In this document: piece by piece, positions 17,357 to 36,807 of the stretch
Layout: every line of letters starts with the position of its first letter
Numbering within the stretch: the first letter of the stretch is position 1
Assembly (NCBI GenBank): GCA_003134695.1
Contig: PLCB01000006.1
Coordinates: 161,039 to 225,038 of the forward strand
DNA length: 64,000 nt
Source of the DNA: Candidatus Zemynaea palustris
Lineage (GTDB): Bacteria; Vulcanimicrobiota; Vulcanimicrobiia; Vulcanimicrobiales; Vulcanimicrobiaceae
Direction: 5' to 3'
Notes under the pieces: generated by a model
The model's input: the letters and a program-made list of their open reading frames with translations, nothing else
Database searches by the model: none
What the model was told of the DNA's origin: nothing
Translations under genes and position numbers: made by a program

Positions 17357-17403
17357 CGAAGCGCCTAGTAGGTCGGTGGGCGCCGGCGGATGGCGAACTA
17401 AGG

Positions 17404-17616
17404 CCCCGCGCCTGGTTTCTACGCGACGTGACGCCGAAGCTCGACGCCTTCTCGCTCGGCGAGATCGCGAAGGCTACGGGCCTATCGCTCGCGGCCTGCT
17501 CGCGCTTCCGGGCCGGAATGCGCGTGCCGCATCCGCGCCATTGGGAGAGGTTCCTCGCGCTCGTCGAAGGGAGCGAGAAGTCGGCCGGAACGCCCGAAAA
17601 GCCTCTGATTCCTTAG
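17404..17616 (+). pseudogene. Solo-Cas1 HTH-domain remnant (copy C)
   Basis: Frame reads PRAWFLRDVTPKLDAF, EIAKATGLSLAACSRFRAGM, VPHPRHWERFLALVEGSEKS and a tail to TAG. It starts within the module with no upstream start or zinc ribbon. Confidence 0.7.
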
Positions 17617-18672: not shown

Positions 18673-18884
18673 GGCCGACGCCCGACATCGCGTGGTGCGC
18701 GGCGAGCCTTCGCTTCCCCCAAGCTTATTGGGCGCCAGCGCGCCGGAATACAAGCGTGCGAACCAGAATTCCGTTGCCATGACTATCCCGGATCGGATGC
18801 GCCGACTAGAACAATTATGGGTGAGATAATCAAGTCGCCGAACACGCCGGCAGCGCAAGCCTAAAGACTAGGCCACTCCGACCG

Positions 18885-19080
18885 GTGTGCGTTTTGTCGC
18901 GCAAATGCCCGTCCCGCAAGACTTTACGGCGCGTCGCGGATTCCAGGCTCCAATCGCGACGCCCGATGCGCTTTGCAAAACGGTTCTGCAAACTAGGCCT
19001 CGTCGCGCAAAGGTCCGTGGCGTCAGGCTTTCCGGCGCACGGCCCGATGCATGGACGAGGCGGCTTGCATCTGGCTGACG
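18885..19080. repeat. Stem-loop repeat block (REP-like), copies 1-2
   Basis: Two imperfect direct units of about 110 bases. The shared core on the minus strand is AAAGCCTGACGCCACGG followed by a near-complement of its start, then a second core around GCTTTGCAAAACGG. The same elements occur at 20500-20660 and 25505-25690. Nothing else is recognisable in 18673-19246. Confidence 0.55.
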
Positions 19081-19246
19081 AGCACATGTGTTCTACGTTC
19101 CAATGAGCGTTTTCCGCGCCGGGCTCGTTAAGAAGCCCAAGGCCTCTAAGCTAAGCCGACATCCGCCACTTTTCGCCATCAGCCGCTGAAGAAGTGACCA
19201 ACAGGTGACCAGCAACTAGAGCTCTCTCCAACGAAGCCGCGCGCTA

Positions 19247-20248: not shown

Positions 20249-20345
20249 CGATGTTAATCTCCATTCCCCAGTTGGTCGATCCTTTAGGCGACGGCTCACG
20301 GTGCGGGTGGCGATCGGCGCCGGGCGATCATGCGATTTCTCCACG

Positions 20346-20399
20346 CATATTGCTCTTCTTTGCAAGCATCTCCGGCCAGGACCTAAATTCATCCGAGGT
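20346..20399. repeat. Perfect 54-bp inverted repeat, right copy
   Basis: Exact reverse complement of 14151-14204. It lies about 100 bases upstream of the paralogue at 20248, whereas the left copy is about 585 bases upstream of the paralogue at 14790. Confidence 0.95.
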
Positions 20400-20439
20400 C
20401 ACCCTTAGAAGCGAGGACCTGCAGCGAAAGTGCAGCGCC

Positions 20440-20472
20440 GTGCCCGATCGAGCCGGATGCATCGCGCATCGG
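20440..20472. repeat. Dispersed 33-bp repeat R3, copy 3
   Basis: GTGCCCGATCGAGCCGGATG then CATCGCGCATCGG. Confidence 0.75.
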
Positions 20473-20499
20473 CCTTACATCGGGCTATGCCGTGAAAAG

Positions 20500-20735
20500 C
20501 CTTATGACACGGACGTTTGCGCGACAGGCGCGAGTTTGCAGAATGGTTTTGCAAAGCGCTCTGAGGCGGCGCTGTAGGCCTCGAAACCCGCCTTGCTCTG
20601 GGAACCCTTGTGGGACAGGCGTTTGCGCGACACGCCTCGCGATTAGGCTGCGCGCGAGACTCCGCTGCCCAGGTGTACGGTTTGGGGCGCGTAGCGTATA
20701 GCCCCTTAGGCCGCGGCTCGGGATAGGAGTTGAGC
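20500..20735. repeat. REP-like block and secA-end repeat
   Basis: 20500-20660 holds degenerate units of the stem-loop repeat (TTTGCAAAGCGC, TTTGCGCGACA twice). From 20703 comes CCCCTTAGGCCGCGGCTC, which is the complement of the last codons and stop of secA plus its 3-prime flank, as at 25439 and 34137. No gene is visible between 20400 and 20890. Confidence 0.5.
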
Positions 20736-20890
20736 GGACCAAAACGGACCCCCCTCCCTTGGTGCATTGCAGCAAGGATCGCGGCCGCTAAGTTCTTAGC
20801 GCTCCGGGGCAGCTAAGCTCTAAACTCTTATATGACAAATACCTCCCATCGTTGGCCTTAATACTATACCGCCTCATTAGCGCTGCGCGG

Positions 20891-21280
20891 TCAGCGCTCC
20901 CGGGCACCGTTCTGAACCGAGAGCTCCCAGCGATACCCCTCCGGATCGTGAAACCACAGGCCCATATGCGGCGAGTCCGGCCCTGTGGGACCGATCTCGT
21001 CGCCCGGATCTTCCAGTTCTACGCCGTTTTTCTTCAACGTCTCGAGCGCTTCGCGCAGCGCGCGCATACTGTCGAGGTGAAACGACAAGTGGTCGATCGT
21101 GTCCGGATGTGGTGTGCCTTTGAAGAACGCGATGATCATCGCGTCGTTCGTCAGCGCGATGGCCTCATCGGACCGGAACATTTCCTGCAGCTCGAAGTTC
21201 TTGGTCCAAAACTCCGCGCTCTTCTCCGGGTCATTGACAGCAACGCTGAAATGCCAAACCGTGCCAAGTTGTATTTTCAT
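20891..21280 (-). CDS. VOC (glyoxalase/dioxygenase-fold) family protein
   Basis: 129 residues, complete. The start LGTVWHFSVAVNDPEKSAEF and the later TIDHLSFHLDS and DPEGYRWEL give the two beta-alpha-beta-beta-beta halves of a vicinal-oxygen-chelate protein, with His in the first half and Glu in WEL as likely metal ligands. Substrate unknown. Flanked by repeats and gene fragments on both sides. Confidence 0.85.
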   Translation of the reverse strand: MKIQLGTVWHFSVAVNDPEKSAEFWTKNFELQEMFRSDEAIALTNDAMIIAFFKGTPHPDTIDHLSFHLDSMRALREALETLKKNGVELEDPGDEIGPTGPDSPHMGLWFHDPEGYRWELSVQNGARER

Positions 21281-21336
21281 GTCCTTACCTCTTCGTAACG
21301 CGTCAAGTGCGCTTGTACCTAAATGCTAAGCGCCCA

Positions 21337-21376
21337 GCGAATCGTGCCGGCGGCGTGGCGCTGCGATCGGAGCGGT
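21337..21376. repeat. 40-bp dispersed repeat R2, copy 1
   Basis: GCGAATCGTGCCGGCGGCGT then GGCGCTGCG and an A/T-variable end; the copy at 22408-22447 differs at two positions. Confidence 0.85.
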
Positions 21377-21483
21377 TTAGCGCGGGGAGTTACGCTCCGG
21401 CAGGAGTCGCACTTCGAAAGCTCGCTCACCTTTTTCTTGAATCTGTCCACAGCATCTGCACCGGCCGCAGCGGGTAGGTTGAT

Positions 21484-21732
21484 TCACGCCCTCAGATTTC
21501 GTGTAAAGAACGGCGCAAGCTTGGTGACGACCAAATCCACCCGATAATCGTACAGGGCCATGTGCGTGGCGCCTTCGACGATGAATAGCTCCTTCGGTCC
21601 GTGCGCCTTCGCATACAGCTCCTGACTATGCCATAGCGATTCGGCCTCACTCCCGGCCACGACCAGGACTGGCTGCGTCAGGAACGTCGAAACCTGGTCG
21701 AAGTCACGGGCGATCGGAGCCGGCCATCCCTT
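21484..21732 (-). pseudogene. Alpha/beta-hydrolase C-terminal remnant
   Basis: The minus frame gives DFDQVSTFLTQPVLVVAGSE, AESLWHSQELYAKAHGPKEL, then FIVEGATHMALYDYR and a tail to TGA at 21484. PVLVVAGSE followed by EGATHMALYD is the acid and catalytic-His end of an alpha/beta hydrolase of the dienelactone/xylan-esterase kind. An in-frame stop closes the frame upstream; the nucleophile half is missing. Confidence 0.7.
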
Positions 21733-21740
21733 TCATCGCG

Positions 21741-22037
21741 TCACTTGATCTCTACGAGTATGACGTTTACGGCACTACCGGGGGCGCTCTCTGGAAGATG
21801 CTCGTGCGCGGGAGCCCAGATCACTTGGCCAGCCTTCATGTCGAACTCTTCGCTCTTCCCGTCCGGATAGGAGAACGTTCCCCGGGCGTCGCCCAGGGAG
21901 ATGACGACGGTTTCGGGGTGGCCATGCATGACAGACTTCTCACCGGGCGCGTAATTAACGCGGAGAACCCGGACCTTGTCGTTTTCAAACTCCACTTTAT
22001 AGTGCTTCGAATCTACTTTCGCGGGGTCTTGAGGCAT
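21741..22037 (-). CDS. Small cupin protein
   Basis: 98 residues. A single-domain cupin: VLRVNYAPGEKSVMHGHPET gives motif 1 with the His-x-His pair, and AGQVIWAPAHEHLPES gives motif 2. Probably metal binding; may act on a small substrate or bind a ligand. No clear operon partner. Confidence 0.8.
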   Translation of the reverse strand: MPQDPAKVDSKHYKVEFENDKVRVLRVNYAPGEKSVMHGHPETVVISLGDARGTFSYPDGKSEEFDMKAGQVIWAPAHEHLPESAPGSAVNVILVEIK

Positions 22038-22703
22038 GCGTGACTCCTAACTGCAAGCTCAGCTGAGGAAGGCTTTCCGCCTACGCTGGTATTCTTTGGG
22101 ACAGCGGGGGTTCGGCCTTCACGGCCGAGAAGCGCAATCTCCCGAACCGAAGCAGGCACGTTCACAAGATCCTCTCTTGGTGCATTTCTGGCGGGCACGA
22201 CCGCGGCCGTCGTCGCGGCGCCCACCTTGGTTGCCGCTGCCGGCACGATTCGCTTGGCGTTAAGGCTTAGCAGCTTAGATCGCTAAGAGGCCGCGCAGCC
22301 CCGATCTCGGCGCCCAGAGAGGGGGGGCCGTGGCGCAAGGCTTTCCGGCTCTAAGCGGCTCTGCTCACCGCCTCAACGATTCGAGGCGCTAAGCTGCAAA
22401 GTGAAAGGCGAATCGTGCCGGCGGCGTGGCGCTGCGAGCGGAGCGGCTTCCAGAGTTGCTCAGCTCGTTGCCGGGCCAATGTTCCAATTCGGGTCGCTGA
22501 GCTCTGCGAGAAGATTCCGTGCTTCTTTCAGAAGCCGCGGCAAAGAATGCGTGAAGGGCCGTGTCGGACGGATTGTGGGTTCATACGGTTCCTAGTGTCG
22601 GGGACAAATGACTAGGCGCCAATGAGTGTTTTCTGCGTTAGGCCTCGTCCGTTCAATAATGATCGAAGGAAGCCACCCTAGAGTCAGCCGGCGCGCCGGT
22701 GGA
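22038..22703. other. Gene-poor stretch with repeats
   Basis: Holds repeat R2 copy 2 at 22408-22447. On the minus strand, 22460 to about 22590 reads LPRLLKEARNLLAELSDPNW followed by NIGPATS and a stop, which could be the tail of a broken gene, but I cannot name it. No intact gene seen. Confidence 0.4.
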
Positions 22704-23792
22704 TCACTCTCGCAGTCGCGTGACCGCGAACGTCGTGGCATCTACTGAGAATTTCGCCACCGGAGCGGATCCGGTTTGCGGTATCAGCCAAATCCAGTAC
22801 GCCGTATCGTTCGGCCGGTTGAAGAGTACTTCGCAGTTGCAATTCGTCGCGGCCTTACCGCTCGTGCGCAGCGCGGCGGCGATCGCTCGAAGGCCGTGCG
22901 TATCGATCGCGACCGTCTTCGGCCAAACGTACTTCGCTTTCATGTAGTCCGGTCCGTTGTTTGTTTGGGGGATGTCGTTGAGAAAAACCTCGCGCGCATC
23001 GAGCATCGGCTTGTTCTGGGCGAGCAGACCCACCAGCGACTTCAAATGGCCTCGGTCGAGCAGGATGCTGCGACTCGACGGCGGCGCGAGACGCTCGGCC
23101 CGATCGGTTACCGCGCTCGTGGCTTGGCCGAGAATTTCAATGCGCCACAGCATATCTTCCGACGCCGCCAAACTTTCGGAAGGTGACGTGGCGGACATTT
23201 GCGCCTTGATCGATGCGGCGTCGTTCGCAAAGGTGTCTTTCAAGACGAGCACCGTTTCGCCGCCGATCTTCCATTGCTCGACTTCTCTTAGCGACGGCCG
23301 AGTCGCGGCCGGCAGCGTCGTCGTGTCCGGATCTACGGAAGACGGGTCGAGCAGGAAGAACCCGCCCTTGTATGCACCCGTGACGGACTGGAATTGCACG
23401 AACATTGTATTGGGGTGAGCGGACGGCGAATACATGATTTGCCGTATGCGCGTGCCCGGCGGTAAGCCGACGGGCATGACGACCGGAAACGTCGCGCTCA
23501 ATGTTATTCTTTGGACATCGGAAGCCATCGGGTACTTCAGCACGACCATCGAACGAACGGTCGCGGCCGCTTTCCCTCCGGAGAGCCATATGTGTACGCC
23601 GCCGTAGATTCTCGCCGCCGCCACCGCAGCGCCCAGCGAGGCGAGCACGATCAACGCGCTCAATGCGAACCGTTGCGTCCGATTCCGCTGCGTCGCCGCG
23701 CGCGACGCGCTGCGGACCGCGTCTATCGAAAGGTTGGGAACGGGGATCCGTTCTCTCGCGGCCTTGCCCGTTACGGAAAAATCATACGGCAT
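22704..23792 (-). CDS. Anti-sigma-factor-like single-pass membrane protein
   Basis: 362 residues, start overlapping the sigma gene by 11 bases. A short basic cytosolic N-terminus (1-45) is followed by one membrane helix (FALSALIVLASLGAAVAAA) and a 290-residue outer domain with VVMPVGLPPGTRIRQIMYSP and GETVLVLKDTF, similar to the sensor parts of DUF4367-type regulators. No zinc motif of the classical ZAS type is visible. It should hold the ECF sigma factor at the membrane and release it on an envelope signal. Confidence 0.65.
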   Translation of the reverse strand: MPYDFSVTGKAARERIPVPNLSIDAVRSASRAATQRNRTQRFALSALIVLASLGAAVAAARIYGGVHIWLSGGKAAATVRSMVVLKYPMASDVQRITLSATFPVVMPVGLPPGTRIRQIMYSPSAHPNTMFVQFQSVTGAYKGGFFLLDPSSVDPDTTTLPAATRPSLREVEQWKIGGETVLVLKDTFANDAASIKAQMSATSPSESLAASEDMLWRIEILGQATSAVTDRAERLAPPSSRSILLDRGHLKSLVGLLAQNKPMLDAREVFLNDIPQTNNGPDYMKAKYVWPKTVAIDTHGLRAIAAALRTSGKAATNCNCEVLFNRPNDTAYWIWLIPQTGSAPVAKFSVDATTFAVTRLRE

Positions 23793-24336
23793 GTTGCGGT
23801 GTCTCTCCAGTCATAGGATCGAACCGGTCTTCGTAGTCGCCGAGAATGTGGCGCAATTTGGCACGCGAGCGCGCCAGCCGTGTTCTGACGGTCGCGTGTC
23901 GCACGCCCAAGGTTGCGGCGATTTCTTCGGTCTTGAGGTCGTCGAAATAAAAGAGTACCGTGACTTCGCGGAATTCGGGCGAGAGTTCGGCCAGCGCGCG
24001 CCACACGTCGATGGCCGTCGAATCGTCGGCGGCCGACGGCGCAAGGCCGGCCACTCGGTCGCTCACGCGCTGCCGACGCCGGACCCGCGCGGTTTGGCGC
24101 ATGATGATGCGATAGAGCCAGGCATCGAACGCTTCGGGCGAGCGCAGGCTACCGATCTTCCGGTGTACGATGACGCACGCTTCTTGAGCGGCGTCCTGCG
24201 CAAGGTCGCGATCCCCCAGGATCGTCGCCGCCAGACGGAAGCAGCCCGGCCAAATGGCGGCGATCAGCTCTTCGACGGCCCACTCATTGCGGTTCAGCGC
24301 CGAGGAGACGAGTTCCGGCGGTGCCCAGCGCGTCAC
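23782..24336 (-). CDS. ECF-type RNA polymerase sigma factor
   Basis: GTG start at 24336 after GAGAGGAAG; an earlier TTG at 24384 is in frame but has no ribosome site. 184 residues. Region 2: CFRLAATILGDRDLAQDAAQ and AFDAWLYRIIMRQ; region 4: LSPEFREVTVLFYFDDLKTE and AATLGVRHATVRTRLARSR. The next gene is the membrane anti-sigma partner. The target promoter could be the repeated TGTAAG-CTTATAAG leader, which is a guess. Confidence 0.88.
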   Translation of the reverse strand: MTRWAPPELVSSALNRNEWAVEELIAAIWPGCFRLAATILGDRDLAQDAAQEACVIVHRKIGSLRSPEAFDAWLYRIIMRQTARVRRRQRVSDRVAGLAPSAADDSTAIDVWRALAELSPEFREVTVLFYFDDLKTEEIAATLGVRHATVRTRLARSRAKLRHILGDYEDRFDPMTGETPQHAV

Positions 24337-24545
24337 GGTCTTCCTCTCATATCGTCTACCCGTAAGAGGCGCGCGACCGTCCAAAATGTTCCCGGCACCC
24401 CGGCCGGGACTTAATCTGCAGGACCTCGCGCACGGGTATCTCTATCTTGGTCCCGCGGCCTTGATCCCTAAAGTAAACCTTCCCGAGGATACCGACGCAA
24501 CTTACGCACGCGAACTCGCTCGACGCCGAGCGCTCGTCCGCGGCA

Positions 24546-24579
24546 GCCTCGTTTCTGGCCGGCTAACATGCGCCTTGCA
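24546..24579. repeat. 34-bp dispersed repeat R4, copy 1
   Basis: GCCTCGTTTCTGGCCGGCTA then ACATGCGCCTTGCA; a copy with small changes lies at 34058-34093. No gene lies in 24337-24638. Confidence 0.7.
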
Positions 24580-24638
24580 CCCCTCGCTTGGCGCATCGCA
24601 GCGAAGCTCCAGACTCTAAGCGCCGGCGATCGCGGCTG

Positions 24639-25259
24639 CTAAGTTGAGAGCCACGACGTCAGACATCTCTTTGGCTCTGGCAAGGACGGCGCATGACCAT
24701 AGACAAACTCTGCGGGACCCCACTCGCCGCGCAGGTATGCTGTTGCCGACTGCACACCCCGCTTGGCATCCGTAGACTCATTTGCGCCGACCGCCAAAAC
24801 CTTCGAATAGATTGTTAGGCCTTGCTGAAGCAGCCGCGCAACAAGCCGCGAATTATCACCTGCATAATGGGCATCCTCTGCCGCAAGCAAATATTGATTC
24901 GCGGCATGGAGTAGCCAATCCGCGCGCGCCCCCGCCAACTTCTTCCGGCTCAGACACGTTTGCACTTGCTGACCGGCCTTTTCCCGCAGACGTGAAGCCT
25001 TCAGTAACTTGTCCTTGCCCGGAACGCTTTTACCGCCGCTCGACTCCAGGTCGTACGCTAGAAACTCGGTGTAGCTGAATACGTCCTCGCATTTGCAAAC
25101 TGCACTCGGTGCAGCATTAGCACCTTGATTGGATGAGAACCACGAGGTCGCAATGGGCGTCGGAGTCTGGGTGGGCGTCGGAGCCTGGGGACTTGGTGCT
25201 ACAGAAACCGCCGGTCCAATCGCAGCCAAAAGCATTAGCAAGAGCAACTGCGCGATCAT
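24639..25259 (-). CDS. Exported hypothetical protein
   Basis: 206 residues with signal peptide (MIAQLLLLMLLAAIGPAVSV) and a Pro/Thr linker (PQAPTPTQTPTPIAT). The rest is helical with two Cys pairs (CKCEDVF, QTCLSRKKL) and TPR-like helix pairs (WLLHAANQYLLAAEDAHYAG). Function unknown. Confidence 0.6.
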   Translation of the reverse strand: MIAQLLLLMLLAAIGPAVSVAPSPQAPTPTQTPTPIATSWFSSNQGANAAPSAVCKCEDVFSYTEFLAYDLESSGGKSVPGKDKLLKASRLREKAGQQVQTCLSRKKLAGARADWLLHAANQYLLAAEDAHYAGDNSRLVARLLQQGLTIYSKVLAVGANESTDAKRGVQSATAYLRGEWGPAEFVYGHAPSLPEPKRCLTSWLST

Positions 25260-25338
25260 TTTTACGAGCGATTCCCTGTCGTGCGTCGCCGTCCCGTTAG
25301 CAAATCGCCGGACAACGCGTCAAGCAGCTTAGCGCGTA

Positions 25339-25462
25339 GCGCCACGCAGCCCGGCGCAGGGGCCTCGTTTTCTGTGCGCTGATTCTGCTCACTCAGCGCC
25401 CGGATGGGGGGCCTCGTTTTGGGTGGGCTTAACTCCTATCCCCTTAGGCCGCGGCTCGGGAG
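25339..25462. repeat. Repeat block: GCGCCACGCAGCCC unit and secA-end unit
   Basis: 25339-25371 matches 34036-34066. 25405-25460 matches 34105-34155 over about 55 bases (GGCCTCGTTTTGGG, GGCTTAACTCCTATCCCCTT, AGGCCGCGGCTC). The second copy runs into the end of secA. Confidence 0.8.
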
Positions 25463-25504
25463 TAGAGGAAAGGCCCTGAAACCGGACTCGGAGCCGCGAG
25501 CAAG

Positions 25505-25690
25505 GGGCGTCGCGCAAAGGCCCGTGCCGTAAGGCTTTTCGGCGCATGGCCGCCTTAGACGCCTCGATCGCGGCGCCCGGCGCGCTTTGCAAAACGTACT
25601 GCAAATCCGGGCGCGGCGCGAAAAGCCCCGTGGCATAAGGCTTTGCGGCGCACGGCTCAATGCACGGTCGCGCCGCCTGCATCGAGGCGC
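25505..25690. repeat. Stem-loop repeat block (REP-like), copies 3-4
   Basis: Two units with cores GCGCAAAGGCCCGTGCCGTA / AGGCTTTTCGGCGCA and GCGAAAAGCCCCGTGGCATA / AGGCTTTGCGGCGCA, about 110 bases apart, with GCTTTGCAAAACGTACTGCA between them. The second core contains AAAGCC...GGCTTT arms able to pair. No intact gene in 25260-25778. Confidence 0.6.
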
Positions 25691-25782
25691 AAAAAGTCGG
25701 GGCGTGTTGACGGCGTCTCGCTTCCTTCGACGAGACCGAGGAACGCTGTGCTCCACCGAATCGCGCACCGGGCCCATCTCAT
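25657..25782 (-). pseudogene. Solo-Cas1 tail remnant (copy G)
   Basis: The minus frame reads AIRWSTAFLGLVEGSETPST then a short tail to TGA at 25657. RW-x-x-AFL-x-LVEGSE is the end of the same HTH module as in copies A and C. Weak on its own, supported by the seven other copies. Confidence 0.45.
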
Positions 25783-26987
25783 TTGATGAACTGTAGGAAT
25801 TGCGCGGCGAGTGCGGATAGAACGACGACGATCCACGGAGGCGTCTTCCATACCGCGAGCAGCAGGAAAGCGAGAAATGCGAGCGCCGCGTCGGCAGGTC
25901 CACGAATTGCACTCACCCATACAGGTTGATATAGCGCAGCCATCAGCAAGCCGACGACGGCAGCGTTCACGCCCTGCAGCGCTGCGATCAGCTTAGGATT
26001 GGCGATGAAATCATTCCAGAATGGAAGGATCGCTCCGATGAGCAGAAACGACGGCAGGTAGATCGCTACGAGCGCAAGGGCCGCTCCGCCCACGCCGCTC
26101 ACCGGACCATGCATCGCCGCGCCGACATAAGCGGCGAACGTGAAGAGCGGCCCCGGCACCGCTTGCGCCGCTCCATAGCCTGCGAGAAACGCATCTGAGC
26201 CGATCCAGCCCTGCGGCACGACGCGCGCTTGGAGCAACGGCAGCACGACGTGTCCGCCACCGAAGACGAGCGCGCCAGATTCATAGAACGCACCGAACAC
26301 GTTGAGCGGACCGTAGGACGCGAATCGTTGTGCGATCGGGAATCCGACGAGCAATCCAAGAAACGCGACGGCGCTAAGGATGGCGGAAACGCGGTTTCCA
26401 GCAGCAGGAATCGGCTGTGTCTTACTCTCCGGTGGCTCAATGAAGAAGCGTCCGTAAACTGCTCCGAGTATGATAATCGAGAGTTGCACGAAGCCGCTAA
26501 CCGGAAGCAAGAGAATTACCGCCGCAGCGACAAACGCGACCGTCCTGCGCGGAACGTCCGGACAGAGTGAACGATACATGTTGGAGACGGCGAGAGCCAC
26601 GACGGCGACCGCAGCGACGAGCAATCCATGAATCCAGGGCGCTTCGGCCACGCCGGGGATGCGTGCGATGCCTAACGCGAACGCAGTCAGTGCAATTGCC
26701 GAGGGAAGCGTGAACGCGATCCAGGCCAACGCGGCGCCTAACACACCGCCGCGAATCAAGCCGATGATGATACCGACTTGGCTGCTCGCGGGACCGGGAA
26801 GAAACTGACAGAGCGCGACGATCTGCGCGAACGTATCCTCATCGAGCCACTTGCGACGGCGCACGAACTCGGCGTTGAAGTAGCCGAGATGTGCGATCGG
26901 GCCACCGAACGAAGTTACGCCCAGGCGCAGGAATGATGCAAACACTTCCCCTGCACCGGAAAGGTTGCGCGGCCCGGAAGGTTCCAT
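25779..26987 (-). CDS. chrA: ChrA-type chromate transporter
   Basis: Start ATG at 26987 after GGGAG; 402 residues. Two homologous halves, each opening with the family signature: FLRLGVTSFGGPIAHLGYF and CQFLPGPASSQVGIIIG in the first, VFGGGHVVLPLLQARVV and YGAAQAVPGPLFTFAAYVG in the second. About ten to twelve membrane helices. Exports or imports chromate-like oxyanions; family members also occur with unknown substrates. Third gene after the cupredoxin and barrel genes on the same strand. Confidence 0.92.
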   Translation of the reverse strand: MEPSGPRNLSGAGEVFASFLRLGVTSFGGPIAHLGYFNAEFVRRRKWLDEDTFAQIVALCQFLPGPASSQVGIIIGLIRGGVLGAALAWIAFTLPSAIALTAFALGIARIPGVAEAPWIHGLLVAAVAVVALAVSNMYRSLCPDVPRRTVAFVAAAVILLLPVSGFVQLSIIILGAVYGRFFIEPPESKTQPIPAAGNRVSAILSAVAFLGLLVGFPIAQRFASYGPLNVFGAFYESGALVFGGGHVVLPLLQARVVPQGWIGSDAFLAGYGAAQAVPGPLFTFAAYVGAAMHGPVSGVGGAALALVAIYLPSFLLIGAILPFWNDFIANPKLIAALQGVNAAVVGLLMAALYQPVWVSAIRGPADAALAFLAFLLLAVWKTPPWIVVVLSALAAQFLQFIK

Positions 26988-27025
26988 GGCCGGCTCCCTT
27001 CGGCCATCTTGCTTACATTGCTCTA

Positions 27026-27805
27026 TTAAGGTTTTGAAACTGCGGGCTTCGGGGCTTCGGGCTTTTCTGCCGGACCCCACGTCCAGTAGAGACCGACGTA
27101 GCCGACAGCGTGCGATTCACCTGAGATCGTGTGCCCAACGTCGAAGAGCACGTTGAACGAATCCGTCGGCTTCAGGTAGCCACCGACCGTATAGAACGTC
27201 GCATGCTGCCCGCCGACCGCTGATGGGCCTTGCGTAAACATCTCGCCGCCGAGTGTGAGCGCGCGGCCGATATCGCGTTGCACGAGCCAGCCTGCGAAGC
27301 CGTAGTTCTGCGCGCCGGGCGCGGTGTTCACCGCATATCCGCCGCCTCCGTACGTGGTCCACGACCCGTAGCTCTTTTGAATCCACAGCGGGAACTTGTA
27401 CCATGTGCGGCCGTTCCCGAGACTTTCATTGGCGTTGCCCGTCGCCACTTCGGCCATCGGAAAGACGCCGATCTGCGGCCTCCCCGCGGTCTCTTGCACG
27501 AACCGGAATTTCACGCCGAGTTCAGTGTCCCCGAGTCCCGACGTCTTCGGTCCGCCGGCCGGCGAGTTCCACTGATAGGGGATGACGATATGAAGGTGCA
27601 CGTTCGGCGCAGGTCCGCAGTTGTATTCGATCGCCGGACCGACGCTGCTCGTCGTCGCTGACGCTTTGTCCCACGTCGAGAAGACATAGAACTCGCAGTG
27701 CTTGTAGTCGATGGGAGCGGGATCATCCGTGAGAAACGGAGGACCTGCCTTGGCGGCACTCATCGACAAGACCAGAAAGATTGCGACCAGCAGTGATTTT
27801 CTCAT
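27026..27805 (-). CDS. Outer-membrane beta-barrel transporter-like protein
   Basis: 259 residues, signal peptide MRKSLLVAIFLVLSMSAAKA, mature start GPPFLTDDPAPIDYKHCEFY, characteristic of the same barrel group as the gene at 6207. Strands rich in Gly, Tyr and Trp follow. 38 bases upstream of chrA. Possibly the outer-membrane gate for this set. Confidence 0.75.
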   Translation of the reverse strand: MRKSLLVAIFLVLSMSAAKAGPPFLTDDPAPIDYKHCEFYVFSTWDKASATTSSVGPAIEYNCGPAPNVHLHIVIPYQWNSPAGGPKTSGLGDTELGVKFRFVQETAGRPQIGVFPMAEVATGNANESLGNGRTWYKFPLWIQKSYGSWTTYGGGGYAVNTAPGAQNYGFAGWLVQRDIGRALTLGGEMFTQGPSAVGGQHATFYTVGGYLKPTDSFNVLFDVGHTISGESHAVGYVGLYWTWGPAEKPEAPKPAVSKP

Positions 27806-27885
27806 TGCGACGACTTTCTGTCGGCCATGGACGGCAACAAACGAGGGAGGGGCGGCGGTTGCCCGTCGCCCCGAGGGTCCGCGCG

Positions 27886-28368
27886 TCAGAGCACGATGAT
27901 CCGGCCCGACATGAAGCCCTCTTTGTCGGGACCGCCGTAGCCTGCACCCATCGCCCACATCTTAGCGCCCATGTCGCAGGGGTACTTGCAGTGCCAGCGA
28001 TAGACGCCCGGCTTGTTTGCGGTGAAGGTGAAGGTCGTTGAAACCGGCTGAACCTCCTGGCCTACTTGCTTCCCTGCCTTGATCGTCTGGTCCAAACCGA
28101 GTTCCGGGCAGGTGATCGAGTGCGGCGACTCATCGTAGTCGACTACGGTGACGGTGACGGGCTCGCCCGCTTTCGTGACGATGTCCGACGGGACGATCGC
28201 ATCGTGCGACTTCCCATCGGGCCCCATGATCTTCTCCTTGCCGCGGAAAACGTACATGGTGACCTTCTGTCCGGTCGCGGCCTCGCTCTCGGGGCCATTG
28301 AGGGCGATTGCGCCGAGCACCATCGCCGCGCCGGTGAGCGCCTGCGCCCTGGAAACCTTGACGTGCAT
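27886..28368 (-). CDS. Exported CuA-like cupredoxin
   Basis: 160 residues from the ATG at 28368 with a signal sequence. The cupredoxin core has VVDYDESPHSITCPELGLD and the C-terminal loop GVYRWHCKYPCDMGAKMWAM. The C-x3-C spacing matches CuA sites (NosZ, cytochrome oxidase II), but the His expected four residues after the second Cys is Ala, with Lys next. A CuA, type-1 or other metal site cannot be decided from sequence. First gene of the group with the barrel and chrA. Confidence 0.75.
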   Translation of the reverse strand: MHVKVSRAQALTGAAMVLGAIALNGPESEAATGQKVTMYVFRGKEKIMGPDGKSHDAIVPSDIVTKAGEPVTVTVVDYDESPHSITCPELGLDQTIKAGKQVGQEVQPVSTTFTFTANKPGVYRWHCKYPCDMGAKMWAMGAGYGGPDKEGFMSGRIIVL

Positions 28369-28608
28369 CTTTGCTCCTTTTGCGCGTTCGCCGCGCACGC
28401 ACAATGTGACTACACGACGAGAACGCGTGGCGAAAAGCCAAGAAGGACCTAAGAAGAAACTGAGGAGCTTGGCAAACGCGCGGGCGCGCCCGACAAAAGT
28501 CTGCCCTCACTCGAAGAAGCGCGAGCGAAGCCGGCGCCGGCGTTGCGGCACGGCGCCGCTGTTGTCGTGGGGCGTCGCCGATCCGCCCGAAGCTCGTGGC
28601 GCGGCGCT

Positions 28609-28862
28609 TTAAGACGCGACGCCTTCGACGAGCGCGAGGAACGCAGCCCAGTGACGCGGATGCGGGACGCGCGTGCCGGCGCGGAACCGCGAACAGGCCG
28701 CGAGGGAGAGGCCCGTCGCCTTGGCGATCTCGCCCAGCGGGAATGCGTCGAGCTTCGGCGTTACCTCGCGCAGGAACCAGGCATCATTGCGCGGCTCGGG
28801 ATGCTCTCTCGCCCATTGCCGGTTCCGGCGATGGTGCGAGGCGACGTCTTGCCTAAGCCAAC
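28609..28862 (-). pseudogene. Solo-Cas1 HTH-domain remnant (copy E)
   Basis: The minus frame reads VASHHRRNRQWAREHPEP, DAWFLREVTPKLDAFPL, IAKATGLSLAACSRFRAGTR and VPHPRHWAAFLALVEG to a TAA at 28609. A stop lies a few codons upstream and there is no start codon. Opposite strand to copies A-D. Confidence 0.7.
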
Positions 28863-28893
28863 GGTCTAATCATCGGATACAGAGCGCCATAAA

Positions 28894-29325
28894 TCACCAA
28901 TTCGAATATGCAAACGGTCCCTTTTTCCCCGAGGCCTTGAGCTTTTTCCGTCGCAAAACACGGTCTTGACACTTTTTCTGAAGCGGTCCGCTCATGGATG
29001 TCACCGGGATGTGATGACCGCGGTTCTCAAGTTCTGTCTTGACTTCTGCAATCGTTTTCGGCTTCTTAAAAAAGCCTTCCTCAATGAGTTCCGCGAGATA
29101 ATGCGCGGGTCCGCCTCTCGCTTTTCTCGGCTGCTTCGAAGGCCGTGATTTCGCGCCGCGCGGCTGGCCATTAGGCGTCGACGCCTTCTCGCGGCCGTCT
29201 GCTCCTGAAAGCAAGTTCTCTAATATCTTTTGAAAAGCAATGCGCTTGAGTTCGGGGTCCTTTACATCAGCGACAGCTCGTTCCGCTTCCTGGACAAGTG
29301 TCGGGTAATTTTTCGGCTCTTTCAT
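28894..29325 (-). CDS. Winged-helix-like protein of unknown function
   Basis: 143 residues. N-terminal helical part, a basic linker (KSRPSKQPRKARGG), then a domain with AHYLAELIEEGFFKKPKTIA, LENRGHHIPVTSMSGPLQKK and LRRKK, ending GKKGPFAYSNW. The helix order and the final YSNW suggest a small winged helix found in scattered bacteria and archaea; the name of the family is not known to me. It follows the wHTH gene at 29597 by 29 bases, so the two are likely one operon. Confidence 0.6.
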   Translation of the reverse strand: MKEPKNYPTLVQEAERAVADVKDPELKRIAFQKILENLLSGADGREKASTPNGQPRGAKSRPSKQPRKARGGPAHYLAELIEEGFFKKPKTIAEVKTELENRGHHIPVTSMSGPLQKKCQDRVLRRKKLKASGKKGPFAYSNW

Positions 29326-29354
29326 TGGGTGGCTCCCTTCCTCAATTAAGCAAA

Positions 29355-29597
29355 TTACGCAGCGAGAAGCTCTGGGAGCGACTCGACACGCTTGCGGCCC
29401 AAACTCGTGATGAATAGCGCCTTGCCGGACTTGTGAAGGAAGCCCTCGGCATCAAGTCGCTTCACTGCGTTTGAAATCGTTGGCTGCGCACGCTTCAGGA
29501 TGCTAACCAGCTCGGCTTGCGACGCTTCTTCGTCATGATACAAGACGAGCAGGATGGCGTCATCACTGTTTAAGCTTGTCTCTCGCACTCCTCGCAC
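29355..29597 (-). CDS. Small MarR-like winged-helix DNA-binding protein
   Basis: About 80 residues from a GTG at 29597 (another GTG three codons in). DDAILLVLYHDEEASQAELV, TISNAVKRLDAEGFLHKSGK and TSLGRKRV form one winged helix-turn-helix. The N-terminus overlaps the Cas1 fragment on the other strand by 22 bases, so the start may have been altered by that insertion. Probably represses its own two-gene operon. Confidence 0.6.
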   Translation of the reverse strand: MRGVRETSLNSDDAILLVLYHDEEASQAELVSILKRAQPTISNAVKRLDAEGFLHKSGKALFITSLGRKRVESLPELLAA

Positions 29598-30523
29598 AAG
29601 GGCTCGATCCGACGCTCGGCGTCCTTCATGCGGACCAGCGCAACCGCGATTCGTTCGCGCTCGATGCCATGGAGCCGATCCGCCCGGACGTGGATGCGTT
29701 CATCCTCGATCTGTTGGAAGATCGCGTGTTCACCTCGCGGGATTTCGCCGAGCTTCCGAACGGGGTTTGCCGCTTATGCAGCCCGGTGACCCACGACCTC
29801 GCACTGACGCTGCCGCATTGGCGAATGCTCATGCAGCCGATCGCCGCGCGCCTCGCACAGGCATTCCGCGAATCGCGCCTCGAACAGCGCGCTGCGCCTC
29901 GCATTCTTGGTGCAGACCCTGTGCATTCGCGTCGCATTCGCCCTGTTGCGAGGCATTCGCCGCTCGTTGCAACGCCTCGCAAGGCCTCGCAGCCCCGGCC
30001 GTATGCAAGCAAAGAATGGAGTGCACCGCGGCCTGAAGGCCTCTCACTCAATCCAATTGCGTGCGCATCGTGCGGCGAGCCAGTCCTCAAACGCAGGCGC
30101 CGGCACTGCGAGGAGTGCATGCCGGAAGTGAAGCGCGCTCATGGCATTCGTGCAATTTCCGCCGCTCGCAAAGCGCTCGCGGCGCAAAGTCTCGCAGGCA
30201 AGGACCCTCGCGCGAATCGCGAGGCCGGGCGCAAGCGCGGCGCGGCTAATGCCGAGCACCACAGGCGGAACCGCGAATGGGCACGCGACCACGACCAGAG
30301 CGCTGTGCGCGATCGCGCCTGGTTTCTGCGCGAGGTTACCCCAAGGCTCGACGTCTTCTCGCTCGTTGAAATCGCAAAAGCGACGGGGCTATCTCTCGCA
30401 GCCTGCTCTCGCTTCCGAGTCAGCTCGCGCGTTCCGCACCCCCGACACTGGCCAGCCTTCTGCGCACTTGTGAGCGTAGCGATTGAGGGACCGGAGTCGC
30501 GCAGCCTTACCTCGCCCCTATAA
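29576..30523 (+). pseudogene. cas1: Solo-Cas1 with zinc ribbon and HTH, N-terminally truncated (copy F)
   Basis: 315 residues from a TTG; no good ribosome site. Residues 1-95 are the C-terminal part of a Cas1 integrase: LALLAQGLDPTLGVLHADQR, SFALDAMEPIRPDVDAFILD and GVCRLCSPVTHDLALTLPHW. The catalytic His18 and Asp30 are kept, but the Glu-bearing N-terminal part is missing. After a variable linker comes a zinc ribbon, CASCGEPV at 163 and HCEEC at about 177, and then the HTH module RAWFLREVTPRLDVF, IAKATGLSLAACSRFR. Cas1 with this tail is a stand-alone type not tied to CRISPR arrays; no array or cas2 is here. Confidence 0.75.
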
Positions 30524-30707
30524 GCGTAGATTGAAGGGATGCAGGCCCGCGCCGTAAAGGTAGGCCCACGGAAATACGGATTCCAAAAAGACAAGGGAGC
30601 GATTCGAAACTCAAATACTTGAAATAGAAGGTAAGATGGATAATGATTGATGAGTTCGGCTTCCCTTATCGCCGCTGAGCGGCGAGGCAGTTCCAGGATA
30701 CCGCGTG

Positions 30708-33700
30708 ATGCCAAGCGATAGTCCACGCGAACATGAGGGCGTGATGATCTCGAGTTCGTTCGCGGACTTGCGTGAACATCGGCGAGTCTTGAGCGCGGCT
30801 CTTACAGGTCAAGGCCTGTTTCCAGTGGCGATGGAGAATGATTCTGCGAAGCCAACGGGCGATGTGCTTGAAAACTCGCTCGCAATGGTTGCAAGTTGTT
30901 CTGCGTATGTCGCAGTAATTGGCCATAGGTACGGTCAAATTCCCGAATCTCGGAGGCGAAACCCAAAGCGCCTGTCCCTGACGGAGCTGGAATTCAACAA
31001 GGCGCGTCGCCTTAAACGACCGGTGCTCCTCTTCATAATGGGAGATGGCCATGACGTAAAGCCGGCAGATGTCGAGCAGGATCCAGAAAAGAATCTAAAG
31101 CTCGCCGTCTTTCGTGAGAACGCAAAGCGCGTTAAGTGTAGCTCGTCGATTCATCGAGTTTACAAAATCTTCAACAGCTTGCGTGAGTTCGAGCAGGCGG
31201 CAACCCAATCCATCGCTGATCTTTGCAGATATCTCGATTCGAAGACGTTTGCATCGGGTTCCGACGCGACGAAACACCGCAAAGTCACGCAGCCCCTCGA
31301 TCTTCGGGCTAAACCGATTTATATTGCTTCTCGTTCCTTCGTCGGTCGTCAGGCGGAGCTTGAGACGTTGAGTGAATGGGCTTCCCCTGCCGACAGTCAC
31401 GCAATACTCCTATTCGAGGCTATCGGTGGCGCGGGCAAGAGTATGTTGGCGTGGGAATGGGCTACCAAGCATGCTCCTGGGATAAGAGACGACTGGAAAG
31501 GGCGCTTTTGGTACTCGTTCTACGAGAAAAGCGCCACGATGCTCGATTTCTGCCGCGAAGCGTTGGCCTATATGGGCAAATGGCGCTCGCGCCATCGACG
31601 AATGAACACCTTCGAACTTGCCAAGGAACTCGTTCAACAACTTCAAGCGGGTCCATGGCTCTTAGTGCTTGATGGCTTGGAGCGAGTTCTCGTTGCTTAC
31701 CATCGGTTCGACGCGGCTCAAATTCCAGATGAAGAGGCAGGCACTAATGACAAGATTGCCCATCGGCATCCTTGCGCCGCCATCAATCCGGAGGACGACG
31801 ACTTAATTCGCGCGCTTGCCGGTGCGCATCCCTCGAAACTCCTCGTCACATCGCGACTCGTTCCGCGAACATTGCTGAATGCCAGTAGCCAGCCTATCCC
31901 CGGCGTCCTGCAGGAAAGGCTTCGCGGGCTTCGTCCCGTGGATGCTGAGTCGCTAATCCGAGAATGCGGCATTACCGGCAGCTCGCTTGAAATTCAGAAA
32001 TACCTCAAAACCTATTGTGACTGCCACCCGCTGGTTGTCGGCGTTCTCGCAGGTTTGATTAACGATTATCTTCCAGACAGAGGAAACTTTGACGCGTGGT
32101 CTATTGATCGGCGCGGCGGGGGCCTGCTTAATCTTGCGAACCTCGACCTAGTTCAAAATCGTAACCATATTCTTAGCGCCGCTCTGAACGCTCTTCCAAA
32201 ACAGAGCAGACAACTACTCTCTACACTCGCACTCCTTTCCGAATCAATTGATTACGATACCCTGAACGCTCTCAATCCGCACTTACTACCGTTGCCGGAG
32301 GAGCAAAAATTACCCAAGAGAAAAACGAATGACAGATGGACCGCAGCCCAGCGGGCCGAAATTGTTGCGAAATATGAAGCGGCTCGGCAAAAATATGTTC
32401 TTTATCAGGAGGCCGTTGAAGCGAGACAAGCTGCTTCGATCACTGCCTCCGACGAATTGACGAGGACCGTCAGCGATCTGGAACGGCGCGGTTTACTACA
32501 ATATGACGCCGCTGCGCGGCGCTACGACCTTCACCCAGTAGTCCGTGGCATTTCCGCTGGACGTCTCAGACAAGAAGAGAAGGACCAGCTAGGTCAACGA
32601 GTCGTCGATCATTTTTCGCAAAAGGCGCATAACCCATATACCGAAGCTGAAACCCTAGACGACCTCAGTAATGCCTTTCTGGTAGTCAAGGCACTGTTCC
32701 AGATGGGCAAGCTGGAGCAAGCGCGCAAGTTCATATTAGGTAACGATTTTCTTCAAGCGTTAAGTACCAAGTTTGAGGCGCACAATGAAATCCTAACGAT
32801 CCTACGTCCCTTTTTTTCCTCGGGTTGGTCTACCATGCCAGCTTTCCTGCAGACGAGCGATGGGATTCTGCTGGCCAAACGAGCAGCCAATTGCTTGAGA
32901 AGAATCAATCAGTTAGGCGACGCATTCGCAGTCTCAGAAGCGGCGGTCCCCTCAATACTCAATCGCAAGAGATGTGGCGGCTTGTACGGACATCTCCTGA
33001 GTATGGCCAGCACCGCTGGCGAGCAAGGTCGGCTCGCCCTTGAGGAACGCTTGATGCATCAAGCGGCGCAGATCGTGCCTCTGCTTAATGAGAACTATGG
33101 AGTTGAAACCACTTTCCGGCTTGCTCGATTTCGACAGCTTTCGCGAAATGGAGCCGTATCTGATGCTGAGTCGATTTGGTCGTTCATTCGCGATGCGAGG
33201 TTGAATGATTCGGAGCGTGCAGTGGCCGAACATCATTATGCTCTTCATCTCTTGTTTTGTCATAGATTAACTGAAGAGGACCTTGCGCGTGCGGAAGCTA
33301 GCAGTCGCGCGGCGCAATCGGCTTTGGGAATTCGCAATCTGAGTACAATGCGCGGTTACTGGCGGCTCGAGGAAGGCAAATGGTCTCAGGCAAAAATGAG
33401 CTTGCAAGAGTCTATTACTCTGGCCCACAGGGCAGGAAAAACAGATAGGCGCACCGAGATCCTGCTCGCGATTGCAAAGTACAAGCTGAATCAGCTTCCA
33501 GATGCGCACGATCTGGCTGAACAGTTTTCAAACGACGCGGAGGGTTCGTGCAATCGTCCGATTGCGGAACTGTGGCTGTGCATAGGGGATCGCGCTCGCG
33601 CGATGGCACATGCCATTACTGCCTATAAGTGGGCTTGGGCGGACGGTGAACCCTATGTACGGCGATACGAACTGAGCAAGTCTGTCGAACTGTTGCAGAG

Positions 33701-33827
33701 GATTAACGCCCGCGTGCCACAGTTGCCAGAATACGACGGCAAGTTCGATCCGGGATTGCCATGGGAAAGCGATGTGGCCCACGCAATTGGACGATTGCAA
33801 GTAGAAAGGCGACCCAATTCTCCTTAA
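30708..33827 (+). CDS. DUF4062 - STAND NTPase - helical-repeat protein, putative defence sensor
   Basis: 1039 residues from the ATG at 30708 (a GTG sits one codon earlier). Residues 12-110 are a DUF4062 domain: VMISSSFADLREHR, CSAYVAVIGHRYGQIP and LSLTELEFNKARRLKRPVLL. A STAND ATPase follows: FVGRQAELETL, Walker A GGAGKS at about 240, Walker B WLLVLDG at about 317, LLVTSR at about 378 and the HPL motif CHPLVVGVLAG at about 439. Then a winged-helix region and about 450 residues of TPR-like helices. This layout (effector-like N-domain, STAND switch, repeat sensor) is that of anti-phage and NLR-like proteins. Base composition is visibly more AT-rich than neighbours, suggesting transfer. It stands alone between Cas1 debris and secA. 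Confidence 0.85.
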   Translation: MPSDSPREHEGVMISSSFADLREHRRVLSAALTGQGLFPVAMENDSAKPTGDVLENSLAMVASCSAYVAVIGHRYGQIPESRRRNPKRLSLTELEFNKARRLKRPVLLFIMGDGHDVKPADVEQDPEKNLKLAVFRENAKRVKCSSSIHRVYKIFNSLREFEQAATQSIADLCRYLDSKTFASGSDATKHRKVTQPLDLRAKPIYIASRSFVGRQAELETLSEWASPADSHAILLFEAIGGAGKSMLAWEWATKHAPGIRDDWKGRFWYSFYEKSATMLDFCREALAYMGKWRSRHRRMNTFELAKELVQQLQAGPWLLVLDGLERVLVAYHRFDAAQIPDEEAGTNDKIAHRHPCAAINPEDDDLIRALAGAHPSKLLVTSRLVPRTLLNASSQPIPGVLQERLRGLRPVDAESLIRECGITGSSLEIQKYLKTYCDCHPLVVGVLAGLINDYLPDRGNFDAWSIDRRGGGLLNLANLDLVQNRNHILSAALNALPKQSRQLLSTLALLSESIDYDTLNALNPHLLPLPEEQKLPKRKTNDRWTAAQRAEIVAKYEAARQKYVLYQEAVEARQAASITASDELTRTVSDLERRGLLQYDAAARRYDLHPVVRGISAGRLRQEEKDQLGQRVVDHFSQKAHNPYTEAETLDDLSNAFLVVKALFQMGKLEQARKFILGNDFLQALSTKFEAHNEILTILRPFFSSGWSTMPAFLQTSDGILLAKRAANCLRRINQLGDAFAVSEAAVPSILNRKRCGGLYGHLLSMASTAGEQGRLALEERLMHQAAQIVPLLNENYGVETTFRLARFRQLSRNGAVSDAESIWSFIRDARLNDSERAVAEHHYALHLLFCHRLTEEDLARAEASSRAAQSALGIRNLSTMRGYWRLEEGKWSQAKMSLQESITLAHRAGKTDRRTEILLAIAKYKLNQLPDAHDLAEQFSNDAEGSCNRPIAELWLCIGDRARAMAHAITAYKWAWADGEPYVRRYELSKSVELLQRINARVPQLPEYDGKFDPGLPWESDVAHAIGRLQVERRPNSP

Positions 33828-34035
33828 GGGCCGCAGTGGTGTGCACCGTCACGGTCGTGTTTGGACTTCGTTTTTGGCAAGAACGTAGAATTTAAGCGGC
33901 GGGCGCGAGCGAGATTTACAAGATGATTGCCGCGCTGACCGAAATAAGACCGTGTGACACTCGTCCTTTTTCCGCCGCGCCACGCCGCCAGGGCGCGCAT
34001 CATCGGAGCCTAGAACCTGAGCCGCTCCGATCGCT

Positions 34036-34155
34036 GCGCCACGCAGCCCGGCGCGGGGCCTCGTTTCTAGCCGGCCAATATATGCGCCTTGCAGCTCGGA
34101 TAGGGGGGCCTCGTTTTGGGGTGGCTTAACTCCTATCCCCTTAGGCCGCGGCTCC
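34036..34155. repeat. Repeat block downstream of secA
   Basis: 34036-34066 matches 25339-25371, 34058-34093 matches 24546-24579, and 34105-34155 matches 25405-25460. The last unit includes the final codons and stop of secA. There is no gene in 33828-34140. Confidence 0.8.
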
Positions 34156-36807
34156 GTGGCAACGCTTGTATTTCTTCCCGCTACCGCAGGGGCACAGTTC
34201 GTTGCGGCCAATCTTCGCCGCCGACTTGACCGGTTTCTTCGGATCGCCTTCCTCGCGGTTGGTGTGCAGTTCGCGCTTTTTCTCAGCCGCGCCGGGAACC
34301 GGGCCGAGCAACTGCTCGGCGTGGCGTGGATCGATGCGCGAAGCATCGTCGCGCGCGAGCGCGCCGTCGGGAAGCTGCGCGACGCCGTTGCCGTCGCCGC
34401 TCGACTGCGGTCCGATCGGGACGCCGAACGCCGAATGTTGCGGCACCGGGCCGTCTTCAGGCTGCTCTACGACGACGCGGAATACCGCTTTGATCGCTTC
34501 GTCGGCGATGTTGCCTTTGAGATCTTCGAAGATCTCATAGGCTTCCTTTTCGTACTCGACACGGGGGTCTTTTTGGCCGTAACCGCGCAGACCGATCCCG
34601 GTCTTGAGCGCATCCATCACGTACAGATGGTCGACCCACATCCTATCGATCGTAGGCAGCAAGATGTATTTGGTCTCGATGACGCGCATCAGCTCGGGCG
34701 TCAGCTCCAGCTCCTTCGCCTCGTACGCCTCGACCGCGATCTCGTAGAGCCGCGCCTTCATCGCCTCGCGATCGAGTTTTTCGAGGTCCTCGACGCCGAT
34801 GCGTTGCCGAATCGGGAAAATCAACTCCATCTCGTTGAGCATCTCTTCGAGATCCCATTCCGAGGGATGGACATTGTCGGCCGCGTTTTGGTCGACGGCC
34901 TGGTTGGCCTTGTCCTGCAACGTTTGCAGCATGAAGTCGCGCATGTTCTCGCCGTGCAGGATGCGGCGCCGCTCGGTGTAGATCACCTCGCGCTGCTTGT
35001 TCATGACGTCGTCGTATTCAAGGACCTGTTTACGAATCTCGTAATTGTGGTTCTCGACCTTGGACTGCGCGCGCTCGATCGAGCGGGTGATCATTCGCGC
35101 CTCGATCGGCGTCTCGTCGGTGAAGCCGACGGCGTTCATGATGCCCTGAATGCGCTCGGCGCCGAAGAGGCGCATCAACTCGTCTTCGAGCGAGACGTAG
35201 AAGCGCGTGCTGCCACGATCGCCTTGGCGGCCGGAGCGCCCGCGCAACTGGTTGTCGATGCGGCGCGACTCGTGGCGTTCGGTGCCGATGATATGCAGGC
35301 CGGCGAGTTCCGCGACGCCCTCGCCCAGCTTGATGTCGACGCCGCGCCCTGCCATGTTGGTCGCGATCGTAACCGCACCGTACAGTCCGGCATCCTTGAT
35401 GATCTGCGCTTCCTGTTCGTGATACTTGGCGTTGAGGACGTTGCACTCGACGCCGCGCCGGCGTAGCCGCGCTGCGAGGTTCTCGCTCTTTTCGATCGAG
35501 CGCGTCCCGACCAGGACCGGGCGTCCGCGTTCGTGCTCTGCGACGATCTCGTCGACGACCGCCTCGAACTTCGCGTTTTCGCTCTTATAGACGATGTCGG
35601 CCTGATCGGTCCGTCGCACCGGCTGGTTCGTCGGCAAAACGACGACATCGAGCCCGTAAATGTCGCGGAACTCACGCTCCTCGGTTTTGGCGGTACCCGT
35701 CATCCCCGCGAGCTTGTCGTACAGCCGGAAATAATTTTGGAAGGTGATCGTCGCGAGCGTCTGATCTTCGCTCCGGACGTTGAGGCCTTCTTTGGCCTCG
35801 ATCGCCTGATGGATGCCGTCGGAGTACCGCCGCCCGTACATCAGGCGGCCGGTGAATTCGTCGACGATGATGACCTCGCCGTCCTTGACGATATACTGCT
35901 GATCTTTGTGGAAGAGATTCCAAGCTTTGAGTGCAGCGTTGAGCTGGTGCGTCAATTCCAGGTTACGCTGGTCGTAGAGGTTGGTGACGCCGAGCAGTTT
36001 CTCGACCTTCGCGACGCCGTTCTCAGTGATCGGAACCGCGTGCGCTTTCTCGTCGACCGTGAAATCCTCGCCCTTCTGCAGGCGCGGAATGAGCTTGGCG
36101 AACTTGCCGTAGAGTTCGGTCGCGTCCTGACCCTGGCCGCTGATGATGAGCGGCGTCCGCGCCTCGTCGATGAGGATCGAGTCGACTTCGTCAACGATCG
36201 CGAAGCTGAGTTCGCGCTGGACCATGTCTTCGATCTGCCACGCCATGTTGTCGCGCAGATAGTCGAAGCCGATTTCATTGTTGGTCACATAGGTGACGTC
36301 GCACTCGTAGGCGGCGCGGCGAGCCGCCGAATCGAGATCGTGTTGGATGACGCCGACGCTGACGCCAAGGAACTGATAGATCGGCCCCATCCACTCGGCG
36401 TCGCGCCGCGCGAGGTAGTCGTTGACGGTGACAAGGTGCACGCCTTTGCCGAGCAGCGCGTTGGCGTAGACGGCGAGGGTCGCGACCAGCGTCTTGCCCT
36501 CGCCGGTCTTCATCTCGGCGACCTTGCCTTCGTGCAGCACCTGACCGCCCATGATCTGGACATCGAAGTGCCGCATCCCGAGGGTGCGCTTGCCGGCTTC
36601 CCGGCACACGGCGAAGATTTCGGGCAACATCTCGTCGACGGTCTCACCGGCCGCGATGCGCTCCTTGAACTCCGGCGTCTTGGCCTGGAGTTCGGAATCA
36701 GAGAGCCGGGAGATCTCGGGTTCGAGCGCATTGGTCTCGACCACGGTTTTCCGCAGCCGCACGACCTCGCGTTCGTTCGCGTCAATGAGTTGCCTGAGGA
36801 ATGCCAT
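34141..36807 (-). CDS. secA: Preprotein translocase ATPase SecA
   Basis: 888 residues, full length. [20 protein letters not shown] and Walker [12 protein letters not shown] at about 99, [30 protein letters not shown], the helicase-2 motifs GTRSIEKSE and [27 protein letters not shown], and the C-terminal zinc SEC-C motif [14 protein letters not shown]. Drives Sec export of the many signal-peptide proteins in this window. Last gene of the rodZ-to-secA run, 50 bases after the kinase. Confidence 0.99.

Follow-up and report, generated by a model that had tools for sequence, protein, structure and literature searches.

The window, that is, the whole stretch of 64,000 nucleotides of Candidatus Zemynaea palustris DNA that was analysed, carries at 29576-30523 an open reading frame of 315 amino acids with a TTG start, whose product is the C-terminal half of a Cas1 protein followed by a zinc ribbon and an HTH. 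Casposons are jumping elements moved by a Cas1 enzyme, the casposase, and the frame corresponds to the 3′ part of a casposase gene. It lies near the 3′ end of the host gene secA, among other cas1 remnants and elements bounded by copies of a short target sequence (target-site duplication, TSD) and, in some cases, by terminal inverted repeats (TIRs):

10686-11099, plus strand: cas1 tail with an internal deletion (homology search of the window)
12047-12112, plus strand: minimal cas1 tail of 22 codons (homology search of the window)
12171-12470, plus strand: standalone cas1 tail (91% amino acid identity)
17374-17571, plus strand: standalone cas1 tail (homology search of the window)
18400-18657, plus strand: standalone cas1 tail (93% amino acid identity to the L052 casposase)
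18820-20704, no strand: probable element C, an older one with cargo only, whose left boundary is approximate (subterminal repeats)
20705-20719, minus strand: TSD copy between elements C and A (18-mer match)
20720-25442, no strand: casposon element A, 4.7 kb, cargo only (TSD on both sides, TIR score)
25443-25457, minus strand: TSD copy between elements A and B (18-mer match)
25458-34139, no strand: casposon element B, 8.7 kb, which holds the cas1 fragment (TSD copies and ends)
25779-28404, minus strand: cargo genes of element B for a chromate transporter, a 310-aa protein and a cupredoxin
28609-28842 (match 28621-28842), minus strand: standalone cas1 3′-end tail inside element B (92% amino acid identity to the L052 casposase tail)
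29576-30523, plus strand: 5′-truncated casposase (Cas1) gene with Cas1 C-terminal half, zinc ribbon and HTH (reading frame, Pfam Cas1, identity to intact casposases)
30705-33827, plus strand: cargo gene of element B for a 1040-aa DUF4062 and NTPase-like protein (Pfam DUF4062, E 4e-17)
34140-34154, minus strand: target site, made up of the final 14 nt of secA and 1 further nt, GAGCCGCGGCCTAAG (exact 18-mer with the TIR GGG, 34137-34154)
34141-36807, minus strand: secA, the host gene targeted for integration at its 3′ end (NCBIfam SecA, 1147 bits)

The identity of the fragment is confirmed, as the reading frame, the Pfam match and the alignment agree with the initial annotation: the C-terminal half of Cas1 is present with a zinc ribbon and an HTH, and the catalytic Glu is missing. 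Positions 206-267 of the 283 of Pfam Cas_Cas1 match residues 4-65 of the fragment (E 5.2e-14), and homology to intact casposases extends from codon 29582 to the end with 67-70% identity, the value being 67% for a casposase of another genus to whose tail most of the other cas1 fragments of the window are closer. The His and Asp residues are kept (LHADQR and LDAMEPIRP), as are the C..C..C..C ribbon and the HTH. Although the fragment had been described as beginning right after the active-site Glu, alignment places its start at residue 239 of L040 (the first homologous residue being about 239 of a 545-aa protein), and the Glu, presumably that of the RLCEAKAAA motif (compare EGxAA of Cas1), lies about 68 residues further upstream in intact relatives. 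A cas1 gene with intact catalytic residues is thus not what the window copy represents, its N-terminal half and Glu being gone, and such residues are found by alignment in relatives such as L040. A search of the whole window found no N-terminal Cas1 sequence in any frame; the DNA 5′ of the fragment is a divergent MarR-like gene. Between the two opposed cas1 relics of element B lie a 143-aa protein of no known family (28894-29325) and this small MarR-like protein (29355-29597).

Given its Cas1 homology, the fragment might be read as the remnant of a CRISPR-Cas adaptation module, but this is almost certainly not the case: a Pfam search found no Cas2 in the genome, no CRISPR-like repeat array is present in the window, and the intact relatives go with PolB, TIRs and TSDs. 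The absence of an array and of cas2 had been correctly noted. Six more cas1 3′-end fragments in the window had been missed.

The intact homologues sharing this tail, which the initial annotation had suggested looking for, are cas1 genes of 534-563 aa in Candidatus Eremiobacterota assemblies of the same bacterial family, and nearly all of them lie 3-6 kb from a divergent PolB frame of about 1000-1140 aa. This PolB has the same type of HTH tail as Cas1 and a weak Pfam DNA polymerase B match (E 5e-4); in an alignment of eight sequences, D-x-E-T and A-, B- and C-type polymerase motifs, including D-T-D-S, are conserved, and the best solved-structure matches of the profile are DNA polymerases. The gene pair and the Cas1 architecture correspond to casposons. 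A PolB profile is positive in 24 of the 149 genomes of the phylum (23 of this family and one of another family of the class). In the window it has no match besides the shared HTH tail; PolB is found in the relatives and on contig C41 of the same genome. That contig (L068 8727-16615) carries a second, divergent casposon, with a PolB split by a frameshift and an intact-length Cas1 of 475 aa without HTH tail. No related Cas1 was found in viral contigs.

Several features are shared with known casposon families. A Cas1 with C-terminal zinc-binding and HTH domains is described for AceAut-C1, a bacterial casposon of family 3 (PMC4046053), a family that also resembles the present elements in PolB, TIRs, TSDs and a bacterial host. 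By contrast, here the host belongs to Eremiobacterota, the target is secA, several elements carry genes for a ParB-like protein, small HTH proteins and other small proteins between polB and cas1, and for the HNH endonuclease gene of families 2 and 3 only a weak HNH_5 match was seen, in the L130 element (E 2e-4, under the Pfam cut-off), with none in the window. An HTH at the C terminus of both Cas1 and PolB is a family 2 feature (PMC4046053), and the family 2 casposons of M. mazei and A. boonei share this trait together with 14-15 bp TSDs (PMC4046053, PMC6614799), integration at gene 3′ ends and tandem arrays, although their hosts are archaeal and their targets mainly tRNA genes instead of secA. 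Casposons in tandem have been described from Methanosarcina as well as at thaumarchaeal EF-2 (PMC6563490, PMC10359463). The thaumarchaeal family 1 elements likewise target a protein-coding gene at its 3′ end and form a tandem pair (PMC6563490), but they have a protein-primed PolB, a Cas1 without HTH tail and another target gene.

The arrangement at secA is defined by an 18-mer, CCCCTTAGGCCGCGGCTC, comprising the 15-bp TSD and the CCC/GGG that opens each repeat, which occurs exactly at 34137, 25440 and 20702 in the window; its chance expectation is 0.13, even allowing three mismatches. The ends of element A form a TIR of about 40 bp (local score 41, shuffle maximum 26), with 16-mers at 20720-20735 (plus) and 25427-25442 (minus), and neither cas1 nor polB is present in it. 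Beyond it, the repeat GTCGCGCAAANGYCCGT is found at 18896 and 19002 (plus) and at 20631 and 20525 (minus), and its 106-bp spacing at both ends suggests the third element, C. The same subterminal repeat lies inside casposon ends at these four window positions and at 25509, with a spacing of about 106 bp, and it is possibly a binding site for the HTH tails of Cas1 and PolB. The sequence CTATACGCTACGC beyond 20704 was considered as the native flank of an empty secA site and rejected: in G091 it also stands beside secA and leads into this subterminal repeat, which identifies it as a further casposon end. In element B the two ends do not form a TIR by the same measure (left against right end, score 23; shuffle maximum 28), and two cas1 relics of different lineage lie within it in opposite orientation. 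As its ends are of different TIR types and its two relics are unlike and opposed, element B probably combines two or more elements. Its 1040-aa cargo protein is possibly a defence protein; PADLOC gave no match for it.

Copies of the target of about 15 bp were found in the window (three exact sites) and in G062, G104 and G061, and these three other genomes show the same TSD-linked tandem arrangement at secA. In G062 (L129 and L130), for instance, the secA 3′ end is repeated exactly at 16.4 and 24.0 kb and with one mismatch at 32.6 kb, giving four sites and three tandem elements with inverted repeats directly inside the copies. The TIRs of its elements 1 and 2 are about 190 and 230 bp long and score 147 and 350 (shuffle maximum 26-28), and element 1 is an intact casposon, with PolB, Cas1 and both TIRs within 16.4 kb. 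The ends of the third G062 element and of the G061 element are mismatched, which, like the mismatch in element B, counts against the explanation preferred below.

More broadly, in 14 genomes a cas1 or polB match is found close to secA on one contig (binomial P 3e-8, assuming an 8% chance per genome). A casposon-like end directly follows the secA stop codon in 22 of the 47 genomes checked, 21 of these 22 having casposon genes; by a hand tally, genomes with and without casposon genes number 21 and 1 where the end motif is present, and 5 and 20 where it is absent (Fisher P 1e-7). On the other side, no undisputed empty secA site was found, and in some genomes the ends nearest secA might conceivably belong to the host. 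It could also be argued that another recombinase, such as a tyrosine integrase, made secA a hotspot in which casposons are mere passengers, because several array members lack cas1 and polB and integrases commonly target gene 3′ ends. We regard this as very improbable, as a TSD of 15 bp combined with inverted repeats agrees with integration by a casposase (median TSD 15 bp, PMC4046053; 14-15 bp in vitro, PMC6614799), the cas1 3′ ends mostly face secA, and the casposon-like end at secA tracks the presence of casposase and polB.

The six additional cas1 fragments of the window range from 22 to about 180 codons, most being 83-93% identical to the casposase tail of another genus, and their 5′ breakpoints are arbitrary. 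In 99 genomes of the family, 62 cas1 fragments are restricted to the C-terminal part and 8 to the N-terminal part (P 2e-11), an excess that would be expected if casposon cores were deleted and the outward-facing 3′ ends kept; polB fragments are likewise mostly 3′-anchored. Two observations count against this explanation: the orientation of the 28609-28842 tail is the unexpected one, and the tails at 10.7-17.6 kb fall outside the bounded elements that were assigned.

Other accounts of the tails were rejected. They are not terminal repeats of an element: their conservation is codon-periodic and ends at the stop codon (the DNA match of the 28609-28842 tail stops exactly there), and in L130 the TIRs sit kilobases further out. 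A retroposon-like 5′ truncation is unneeded, since polB is also 3′-anchored and the pattern follows from the outward-facing gene pair. Lipoprotein-like genes 3′ of tails, considered as part of an inverted repeat, are in fact a multicopy cargo gene family. Additionally, two minimal cas1 tails lie head to head as a near-palindrome in L061 (699-803) and in G104:C29 (9495-9588), and an Mrr-like nuclease gene follows an intact cas1 in one genome and, in a second genome, a different cas1 tail that is truncated (L049 9882-11142 and L137 9418-10675). The DNA of these two copies is 90% identical, beginning inside the cas1 end, which suggests recombination at the cas1 3′ end.

The intact casposase genes also share a 5′ leader of about 70 nt, made up of two hairpins: one is GC-rich, and in the other the ribosome-binding GGAGG pairs with a CTCC that directly precedes the ATG. 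Examples, among others, are:

L052, 8000-8070
L130, 12602-12670
L068, 10152-10222
L123, 9205-9272

A covariance model derived from eight genes has further matches at the same place before divergent casposases, including that of contig C41 (E 1e-10 to 1e-14), which are about 33-37% identical to the training subfamily. In the alignment fitted to this model, five pairs of helix 1 are changed on both sides, which none of 500 shuffles equalled, and sliding the pairing lowers the paired fraction from 93% to about 40%. Nothing in Rfam matched the leader at gathering scores.

The initial annotation considered that, if translated, the fragment would make a DNA-binding but inactive Cas1-like protein. 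An extended version of this reading, in which the truncated Cas1-ribbon-HTH protein, and perhaps the HTH tails too, would be expressed as a domesticated regulator that binds casposon ends or target DNA and represses transposition, draws on the open frames of all tails in the window, which are not predicted for a long-dead gene and count against our preferred explanation, and on low dN/dS-like ratios (for the fragment compared with intact genes about 0.17-0.27, for pairs of tails about 0.1-0.3). Additionally, the ribbon and HTH are the better-modelled part (pLDDT 63-87, against 31-52 over residues 1-100 of the Cas1 half modelled alone, both from a shallow alignment); the predictions, with mean pLDDT of 52-58, were too weak for fold searches. 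However, low ratios are also expected if each relic derives from its own functional casposase. Open frames and low ratios suit a young relic and a retained DNA-binding protein alike. Moreover, the native leader, with the ribosome-binding site and start, was lost along with the N-terminal half (the R1 leader model has its best match in the window at E 0.04, none being convincing), the 5′ breakpoints are arbitrary, the Cas1 half models poorly by itself, and an orthologous truncated gene was not seen at the same place in relatives. A domesticated regulator is therefore unlikely. The missing leader, the arbitrary truncation points and the other relics around, in a TSD-bounded casposon array at secA, favour a relic, and this is most likely what the fragment is, with a residual DNA-binding role possible.

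We consider it highly probable that deletion of a casposon core left this fragment, the 3′ half of a casposase gene, within a row of elements repeatedly inserted at the end of secA. In the casposons of this family, polB and cas1 form a divergent pair whose 3′ ends point outward to cargo genes and TIRs. In the proposed history, the casposase would insert elements repeatedly at the last 15 bp of secA by a Cas1-type staggered integration, each insertion duplicating the target and leaving secA intact with a fresh site, and as a consequence elements would stack in tandem, an arrangement that the TSD copies show. The newest element would presumably be nearest secA, as in the growth of CRISPR arrays. 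Internal deletions may then have removed polB together with the 5′ portion of cas1 and spared the cargo, which would explain the 3′-anchored cas1 tails beside it.

Engineered mini-casposons of M. mazei, with the order TSD-TIR-cargo-TIR-TSD and no cas1, translocate in the cell and even form tandems (PMC10359463); elements A and C, unlike them, appear to be natural cargo-only forms, of putative mobility. Two things look new: an array of casposons, some of them cargo-only, that is targeted to secA in a phylum without reported casposons, and the conserved, structured 5′ leader of the casposase genes. In the freely accessible full texts searched, we found no paper combining casposons with secA, nor any mention of casposons in the papers listed there on this phylum.

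To our knowledge, descriptions of bacterial casposons are few. The CRISPR adaptation machinery is proposed to have come from casposons. We tentatively propose, as a picture somewhat more likely to be wrong than right in its entirety, that in Eremiobacterota the secA 3′ end is a standing casposon site with CRISPR-like ordered arrays, where autonomous casposons would provide casposase in trans for natural cargo-only (mini) ones that bear metabolic and defence-like genes, and where the leader RNA would control casposase translation. With PolB in 24 of 149 genomes and multi-element arrays at one site, many natural junctions are available, which are useful for the study of target rules, TIR evolution and decay. 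They also offer a setting for asking whether CRISPR arrays were preceded by the array-like stacking of elements at a gene end resembling a leader, and an uncultured bacterial phylum gains an unreported, orderly hotspot of casposon integration.
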